A DNA stretch of 64,000 nucleotides. Source: Chthonomonas sp. (GTDB lineage Bacteria; Armatimonadota; Fimbriimonadia; Fimbriimonadales; Fimbriimonadaceae). Of this stretch, positions 3,492 through 52,435 are shown in pieces (positions within the stretch are counted from its first letter, which is position 1; each line of letters starts with the position of its first letter). The notes beneath the pieces were generated by a model. That model did not search any database. It saw nothing but the letters and a program-made list of their open reading frames with translations, and had not been told where the DNA came from. The position numbers and the translations under genes are program-made. The stretch lies in contig JAEURQ010000001.1 in NCBI GenBank assembly GCA_016788425.1, positions 62,001-126,000 on the forward strand. The letters run 5' to 3'.

Positions 3492-4406
<915 letters not shown>

Positions 4407-4796
4407 TCACAGGCGCGCTCGGTGGCGCACCATGTGATCGACAATGAGCGGAGCGAAGTCAACCGCATTGACTTCGCTCCATTTTGCCCAACTCACCTCG
4501 GCGATTTCGGCTTGCGCGAGGACCTCGCCGACTACCTCTGCCGTGAACACGTCGGCCGTCATCTCGGTGTTGGCCTCGTTGGCCGGCGCGCACACCACGC
4601 GCTCCAGAAACTGCACATCCCGCAACTCGCAGCCCAACTCTTCGCGGAGTTCACGGCGCAACGCGTCCTCGGGGGCTTCGTTTGTAAGGGGTTTGCCGCC
4701 CGGCTGAAACCACTTCGTTGTGCCGTGCTTACGAACCACAAGGATTTGGTCATTCCGTTGGGCCAAAAGAGCCACAACATAGAGCTTTGCGGTCAC
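4407..4796 (-). CDS. Nudix hydrolase
   Basis: Small 129-residue pyrophosphohydrolase that cleaves nucleoside diphosphates linked to another moiety; substrate unknown. A complete Nudix box is visible at about residues 33-55, matching GX5EX7REUXEEXGU (GKPLTNE, then REL and EELGC). The start is GTG at 4796, five nt from a -10 box (TACACT on the minus strand) shared with the divergent nuclease gene. The stop codon abuts that of pdxS. Confidence 0.88.
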   Translation of the reverse strand: MTAKLYVVALLAQRNDQILVVRKHGTTKWFQPGGKPLTNEAPEDALRRELREELGCELRDVQFLERVVCAPANEANTEMTADVFTAEVVGEVLAQAEIAEVSWAKWSEVNAVDFAPLIVDHMVRHRARL

Positions 4797-4800
4797 AATT

Positions 4801-4807
4801 TAGTGTA
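4801..4807. promoter_or_regulatory. Symmetrical bidirectional -10 element between Nudix and EEP genes
   Basis: The 7-mer TAGTGTA reads TAGTGT on the plus strand (4801-4806) and TACACT on the minus strand (4807-4802). It sits centrally in the 15-bp gap: 5 nt separate it from GTG of the Nudix gene and about 5 nt from ATG of the nuclease gene. Both transcripts would be leaderless. Known bacterial bidirectional promoters use this type of -10 symmetry; the assignment here is by sequence only. Confidence 0.6.
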
Positions 4808-4811
4808 GCGG

Positions 4812-5828
4812 ATGAAGGCAGCCGTCTCCCCAGTTCGATCTCGCAAGCAGGTGCGTCGCCCGCGTGTTGTCACGTGGTTGTATGCCTGGGCGGCGCTGGT
4901 TCTGCTGATATGGGGTGTGAGCGCCGCCGGCAACGATCGCGCGTGGTGGGGCACCGCGCTGGCCTCGGTGCCGCCGCAGGTGTGGCTCATCCCCACCGCG
5001 CTGCTGCTGGTCATTGGTGTGGCGGGCAAAAACCTGCGGCTCATTTGGGTGCCTCTGGTTGCCTGCGCCTTGGTGCATCTGGGGCAGATGGGATTTCGCT
5101 GGGCATTGGTCACTGGTAGCTCGATGCCCGAGCTCAAGGTGCTGACCTGGAACCTGCGCCACGGCGAGCGCGGCATGAACTCCATTGTCGCCGAGCTTCG
5201 CCGGATTGACGCCGACGTGTTGCTGCTCCAAGAAACTCATCAGGGCGAACTGGGCGACAGTCCATTCCAGGTGCTGCGCGAGAAGCTGCCGGAATACAAT
5301 TTCGTCGGCGGCGAGGAGACGATGATCCTGAGCAAGCTACCGATCCGGGAATCGCGGGTCAACGAGCTTCCGCTGGCGAGTCATCGACGGTTCGTCCCGC
5401 AAGCCGAGATCGAATTCGAGGGCAAGGTCGTCACGCTGTATTCCGTGCACCTGCTCAACGGGCTCCGCCCCGATTGGCTCAAGGGCCCCAGCGGCCTTCC
5501 GCGCAAGCTCGACCACGCCGAAAAGCAGCGTTGGGACCAGATTAAGGCGGTGGACGGCGCGATCCGCGCCGAGGGTCCGGTGATCATCGGAGGCGACTTT
5601 AACACGTTGCCGCGCGGCGCGATCTATCAGCATTTTGCCGACCGCTACACGGATGCCTTTGCCGCCGCGGGGCGCGGCCTCGGCTGGACCTTCCCCGACT
5701 ACTTCCTCACCGCGCGCATTGACTACCTCTGGAGTTCGCCGGAACTGGTTCCGGTGGAGGCGAATGTGGTGGGCGCCCGCGCCAGCGACCACCTGCCGGT
5801 GCTCGCGAAGTACATCCTCAAGAAGTAA
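4812..5828 (+). CDS. Membrane-anchored endonuclease/exonuclease/phosphatase family protein
   Basis: 338 residues with two or three N-terminal membrane helices (about 17-100) followed by an EEP catalytic domain (about 104-338). Family motifs are present: LKVLTWNLRHG with the metal-site Asn, LLLQET with the metal-binding Glu, IIGGDFNTLP, RIDYLWSS and the closing SDHLPV Asp-His. The domain probably lies on the outer face of the membrane. EEP enzymes cleave DNA, RNA, phosphoinositides or sphingomyelin, and nothing here picks the substrate. It is divergent from the Nudix gene with a 15-bp gap. Confidence 0.86.
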   Translation: MKAAVSPVRSRKQVRRPRVVTWLYAWAALVLLIWGVSAAGNDRAWWGTALASVPPQVWLIPTALLLVIGVAGKNLRLIWVPLVACALVHLGQMGFRWALVTGSSMPELKVLTWNLRHGERGMNSIVAELRRIDADVLLLQETHQGELGDSPFQVLREKLPEYNFVGGEETMILSKLPIRESRVNELPLASHRRFVPQAEIEFEGKVVTLYSVHLLNGLRPDWLKGPSGLPRKLDHAEKQRWDQIKAVDGAIRAEGPVIIGGDFNTLPRGAIYQHFADRYTDAFAAAGRGLGWTFPDYFLTARIDYLWSSPELVPVEANVVGARASDHLPVLAKYILKK

Positions 5829-52358: not shown

Positions 52359-52435
52359 GGCGGGTATAGCTCAGGGGTTAGAGCGCCTCTCTGTGGAAGA
52401 GGAGGTCGTGGGTTCGAGACCCATTATCCGCCCCA
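52359..52435 (+). tRNA. tRNA-His (anticodon GTG)
   Basis: Full cloverleaf: acceptor GCGGGTA paired with TATCCGC, D arm GCTC/GAGC, anticodon stem CCTCT/AGAGG with loop CTGTGGA, and T arm GTGGG/CCCAT with TTCGAGA. Base 52359 is the G at position -1 that pairs with C73 (52432), the histidine identity element. The 3' CCA is encoded (52433-52435). An upstream CATAAT at 52342-52347 is a likely -10. Confidence 0.97.

Follow-up and report, generated by a model that had tools for sequence, protein, structure and literature searches.

A −10-like box between two divergent start codons, and candidate two-headed leaderless promoters in a Fimbriimonadaceae-like genome

Two divergent genes in the 64,000-nucleotide stretch of DNA analyzed here (the window, part of a 2.67-Mb genome in four contigs) are separated by 15 bp (AATTTAGTGTAGCGG, positions 4797 to 4811), and the locus raises the question of whether a single −10 element could serve them both. 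The minus strand carries a gene for a NUDIX hydrolase (4407 to 4796, 129 amino acids; Pfam PF00293, 1e-15, 58.4 bits against a cut-off of 21.1) that starts with GTG at 4796 to 4794. The plus strand carries a gene for an endonuclease/exonuclease/phosphatase family protein (EEP; 4812 to 5828, 338 amino acids; PF03372, Exo_endo_phos, 3.5e-27, 96 bits against a cut-off of 24.5) that starts with ATG at 4812 to 4814, so that the first bases of the two start codons lie 16 bp apart. An in-frame TAA directly upstream of the GTG (4802 to 4800, minus strand) and an in-frame TAG directly upstream of the ATG (4806 to 4808, plus strand), both read from the sequence, rule out ATG, GTG, or TTG starts further upstream for either gene. 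Both starts are also backed by proteins of a relative, genome G005, with alignments that begin at residue 1 (49% identity for NUDIX, 41% for EEP). The dicodon gene caller had picked an EEP start at 4917, a choice rejected in view of the in-frame stops and the protein alignment. No Shine-Dalgarno (SD)-like core (GGAG, GAGG, or AGGA) was found in the 20 nt before either start.

The NUDIX gene is tight at both ends, as its stop codon abuts that of pdxS (4406/4407, within 4404 to 4409) with zero bases between them, and the 15-bp gap precedes its start. The best match of PdxS (82%) lies in a Fimbriimonadaceae metagenome-assembled genome, where a different open reading frame (ORF) follows pdxS (locus L101). 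When used as a query against the genome contigs, the EEP protein returned no relative, and an Rfam search of the window matched only a tRNA at 52360 to 52432.

The gap contains the 7-mer TAGTGTA (4801 to 4807), a pseudo-symmetrical −10 candidate of the form TA...TA. It reads as TANNNT on each strand, as TAGTGT on the plus strand (4801 to 4806) and as TACACT on the minus strand (4802 to 4807), each exactly 5 nt from its start codon, and the −11A of one strand pairs with the −7T of the other, and vice versa. The sequence and its ORFs thus agree with a sequence-only reading of this DNA, which had described a 15-base gap with such a box about 5 nt from a GTG and an ATG. From 4600 to 4811 (212 bp), the plus strand has no further TANNNT besides TAGTGT, and on the minus strand between 4797 and 4990 the only such words are TACACT and an overlapping TAAATT that touches the GTG. 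TANNNT at 5 to 8 nt from both ends arose in 1.2% of shuffles of the gap 15-mer and in 0.24% of random 15-mers with the base composition of the 864-kb sample described below.

The same reading had placed −35 regions inside the opposite coding sequences, and none were seen there. On either side, the best −35 match had 3 of 6 positions, the commonest value among 20,000 random places, and scans of 4600 to 5000 for sigma-70 consensus sites and terminators returned no promoter-like site and no terminator.

Both halves of such an arrangement have precedents. Bidirectional promoters that arise from −10 symmetry are described in Escherichia coli, Salmonella, and other prokaryotes (Warman et al. 2021, via PMC12825309 and PMC10268837), where they were found by mapping of transcription start sites (TSS). 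The TSS of such promoters lie on opposite strands, 7 to 25 bp apart, with 18 bp as the commonest distance and with 10 and 23 bp also seen. For the Deinococcus-Thermus group, Actinobacteria, and others, leaderless genes are described that have no SD sequence and carry TANNNT about 6 to 7 nt before the start (PMC12340547 and PMC3160421), and TACACT is reported as the commonest form in Deinococcus radiodurans (PMC12340547).

Leaderless-type starts were surveyed across 864 kb, made up of the window and 40 stretches of 20 kb each, in which a simple dicodon model called 710 genes; this gene caller is crude, and most starts were taken as called. Of 709 genes, 71 had a TANNNT that ended exactly 6 nt upstream of the start codon, compared to a mean of 7.4 genes at distances of 12 to 24 nt, with raised counts at 7, 8, and 9 nt as well (24, 18, and 24 genes). 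At 5 nt there were 13 genes against a background of about 7, the two genes of the window pair included. The commonest word among the 71 boxes at 6 nt was TAAACT (16 boxes), and an SD-like core was absent in 139 of the 145 genes with TANNNT at 5 to 9 nt; neither feature was found in 412 of the 709 genes. The bases in front of the 71 boxes were commonly GG (G in 56% and 69%), and no −35 element was detected in this class in general. The usual extended −10 element is TGn, from which the GG differs. By the same method, the 6-nt peak comprised 15 of 120 genes in Mobiluncus, 6 of 118 in Austwickia, and 6 of 113 on plasmid 1 of Deinococcus deserti, samples from the Actinobacteria and Deinococcus-Thermus groups, in which leaderless genes are known (PMC12340547 and PMC3160421). 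Overall, starts of the leaderless type, as judged by the position of the box, are common in this Fimbriimonadaceae-like genome. A second peak of TANNNT was seen at 9 nt (24 of 709 genes, and 10 of 301 genes sampled from the family's other genera), which may stem from a 3-nt leader or from calls that placed the start one codon too late.

Seen against this class, the symmetry of TAGTGTA adds little, since any TANNNT followed by A reads backwards as another TANNNT, and the next base was A in 15 of the 71 boxes. Both boxes in the window have a spacing of 5 nt, where the class optimum is 6, and both lack the GG that is frequent in the class. The 71 boxes at 6 nt, with the window pair excluded, served to train a weight matrix and a spacing term, and the resulting score was applied to 707 genes and 2277 decoy start codons. 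The NUDIX reading scored 2.24, a value reached by 18% of genes and 0.7% of decoys. In the EEP direction, TAGTGT was not the best-scoring alignment; the best reached −4.0, a value attained by 38% of genes and 11% of decoys, and the density ratio of genes to decoys was 1.4, near background.

The two genomes of the genus that were searched supplied one relative only, G005, in which NUDIX and EEP are still divergent. The sequence-only reading had named lack of conservation of the gap in relatives in which both genes stay divergent as evidence against it, and this is what the relative shows, with a gap of 64 bp compared to 15 bp in the window. In the DNA alignment, AGTTTAGC of G005 falls on AGTGTAGC of the window, so that the position of the NUDIX box aligns. 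The box of the relative is TAAACT, 7 nt before the start, and scores 7.99, above all decoys. T4801, which the EEP reading needs, is G in G005, where the symmetry is therefore lost and the NUDIX reading kept; the EEP start of the relative scores −9.7 and is without such a box. For TACACT as a candidate leaderless −10 element of NUDIX, the decoy comparison and the relative thus make promoter activity likely, and a leaderless NUDIX mRNA would fit the leaderless-type class of this genome. The suggestion that the box also acts as the −10 element of EEP, with a second leaderless mRNA, fared less well, given the density ratio, the spacing of 5 nt, the poor match to the class, and the asymmetry of the box in the relative. 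TAGTGT is a candidate for weak activity in this direction, without score or conservation support, and we consider the chances that it is used to be evenly balanced. Taken alone, the window site would be a weak case of a compact two-way design, with one direction supported.

The more general idea, that the −10 elements of two genes can be housed in a gap of about 20 bp, recurs elsewhere in this genome. The 864-kb sample contains 114 divergent neighbors, 18 of which have ATG or GTG starts 12 to 25 bp apart, and in 6 of these 18 TANNNT lies 5 to 8 nt from both starts; 5000 shuffles, which model AT-rich start regions incompletely, gave 0.18 such pairs on average and never more than 3. Some of the 18 pairs are expected to be spurious, since most starts were unverified and start combinations lying as much as 60 nt downstream of the modeled start were permitted. 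Besides NUDIX/EEP, the six comprise genes for an HD-domain protein and aconitase (locus L063, 14798/14818, gap 19, TAGAATA), a DeoC-type aldolase and a GSDH-cytochrome c protein (L071, 12883/12903, gap 19, TAGTTTA), an inositol monophosphatase and a penicillin amidase (L080, 11899/11920, gap 20), two 3-keto-disaccharide hydrolases head to head (L095, 11888/11909, gap 20), and a peptidase M55 and a CoA transferase (L076, 1375/1399, gap 23). The pairs at L080 and L095 both contain AGTATAGT; mutually unrelated and exactly 6 nt from both ATGs, they are the cleanest cases of the putative design, and the 6-nt spacing on both sides suggests that selection may have tuned the box. A seventh pair, found by pattern search, consists of the divergent end-joining partners Ku and LigD (L313, 1503/1522, G000:C4:607446-607469), in which TACAATA occupies a gap of 18 bp and the boxes lie 6 and 7 nt from the ATGs.

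Pattern searches across the whole genome found CATN{5,7}TANNNTAN{5,7}ATG at nine places, compared to none for the reversed control. Long ORFs flank three of these on both sides (HD/aconitase, aldolase/GSDH, and Ku/LigD), four others have a gene on just one side, and two mark no gene start. The pattern of the AGTATAGT type occurred at two places (one for the control), both of them real pairs. The exact geometry of the window was found at two places, the second inside a gene, compared to seven for the reversed control, and is thus not enriched. Scores were in line with these counts: both AGTATAGT pairs exceeded all decoys on both sides, the four other pairs had fair to strong scores on both sides, between 0.3 and 10.2, values reached by at most 1.7% of decoys, and the window pair was the lowest-scoring of the compact dual pairs.

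No compact dual pair was present among 101 divergent neighbors in the comparison samples (47 from seven other genomes of the family, 16 from Austwickia, 18 from Mobiluncus, and 20 from D. deserti plasmid 1). The difference between 6 of 114 and 0 of 101 gave a Fisher p of 0.031; leaving out the window pair, which is what drew attention to the class, raises it to 0.062. None was seen either among 12 divergent pairs of G005, which was left out of this test; its sample was poor, with 73 genes called and no G or C in three of the five stretches whose GC was printed. In G005, the orthologues of the HD, GSDH, and M55 genes have different neighbors, and that of the penicillin amidase gene lies at a contig end; with three of the four looked-up pairs re-neighbored and the fourth at a contig end, the compact pairs look young rather than like conserved units. 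In one other genus, HD and aconitase are still divergent in two genomes, and the gaps there are wider. Given the examples in this genome that are better than the window pair, the compact design looks real.

The explanation that we favor, to which we give about an even chance, is that the 15 bp contain a single sigma-70-type −10 element with no −35. A polymerase facing NUDIX would use TACACT and start at the GTG, giving a leaderless mRNA, as class statistics and the relative indicate. The A that follows the element on the NUDIX strand creates TAGTGT toward EEP, and a polymerase in the opposite orientation would probably make a weaker leaderless EEP mRNA. By analogy with E. coli, where the polymerase orientations at symmetrical promoters are reported to exclude each other (PMC12825309), the two orientations would be mutually exclusive. 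With neither a −35 nor a leader, each round of transcription would then serve one gene or the other.

Somewhat short of an even chance is a one-way promoter. Here TACACT would yield a leaderless mRNA for NUDIX alone, TAGTGT would be a by-product, and EEP transcription would begin at an unrecognised promoter within the NUDIX gene and give an mRNA with a leader that lacks an SD sequence. The near-background score of the plus-strand box and the relative, which retains the NUDIX reading only, both fit this account. Also in its favor, many of the sampled genes (412 of 709) have neither an SD-like core nor TANNNT at 5 to 9 nt, and the genome holds a further TAGTGTA (L308, G000:C2:584140-584163) where the TACACT reading faces a 331-amino-acid gene and the TAGTGT reading no more than a 47-amino-acid ORF. 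Yet TAGTGT is the sole plus-strand TANNNT in 4600 to 4811, the consensus scan of 4600 to 5000 offered no promoter-like site in its place, the ATG at 4812 has no SD-like core in front, and two good boxes are present at the other compact pairs. That the box is a chance occurrence, with no promoter in the gap and both genes served from upstream in each other's coding sequence, we regard as improbable. A spacing of 5 is near background, 1.2% of gap shuffles do equally well, and the place was chosen for its look; against this, the NUDIX box lies in the same place in the relative, in a stronger sequence, and the leaderless-type class is strong in this genome.

The favored explanation combines two known things, symmetrical −10 elements and leaderless starts. 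With the bidirectional promoters known from −10 symmetry it shares the TA...TA box and the reciprocal pairing of −11A and −7T. Unlike in those promoters, the start codons themselves are here 16 to 24 bp apart (16 at the window pair and 21 at the AGTATAGT pairs), so that the promoter would be the entire intergenic region and both mRNAs leaderless. Like the leaderless genes of the Deinococcus-Thermus group and Actinobacteria, the genes here lack an SD sequence and have TANNNT near the start, though at 5 nt (7 nt for NUDIX in the relative); unlike the genes in PMC12340547 and PMC3160421, one box may serve two of them. Divergent pairs are not treated in those two papers, whose main texts contain neither "bidirectional" nor "divergent". 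The lysG/lysE pair of Mycobacterium tuberculosis is described as divergent, with overlapping promoters and one leaderless transcript (PMC5648196), and resembles the present arrangement in these respects; it differs in its 108-bp intergenic region, its −35 elements, its regulator site, and a leaderless start that comes from a second promoter (PMC5648196). No description of compact bidirectional leaderless promoters was found in searches of open-licence PMC papers.

This genome has at least seven compact divergent start pairs in which a gap of 15 to 23 bp would hold a −10 element for each gene, NUDIX/EEP among them. Boxes at start codons that have no −35 and no leader can be read in reverse if an A comes next; a gene brought head-first by rearrangement to a position behind a leaderless gene may thus meet a ready promoter, which selection may then tune. 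We put at slightly below even the chance that this genome carries a class of two-headed leaderless promoters, in which 15 to 23 bp would form the whole control region of two genes, Ku/LigD included, coupled by polymerase orientation alone. If so, the lower limit for a two-gene control region would be one melted box with start codons on its rims. Such pairs, with no −35, no leader, and no known regulator, would offer clean natural tests of how polymerase chooses its orientation, and could show whether mutual exclusion keeps partners arranged head to head, such as Ku and LigD, in balance. They would also suggest that −10 symmetry is directly readable from the genome sequence wherever many genes are leaderless.
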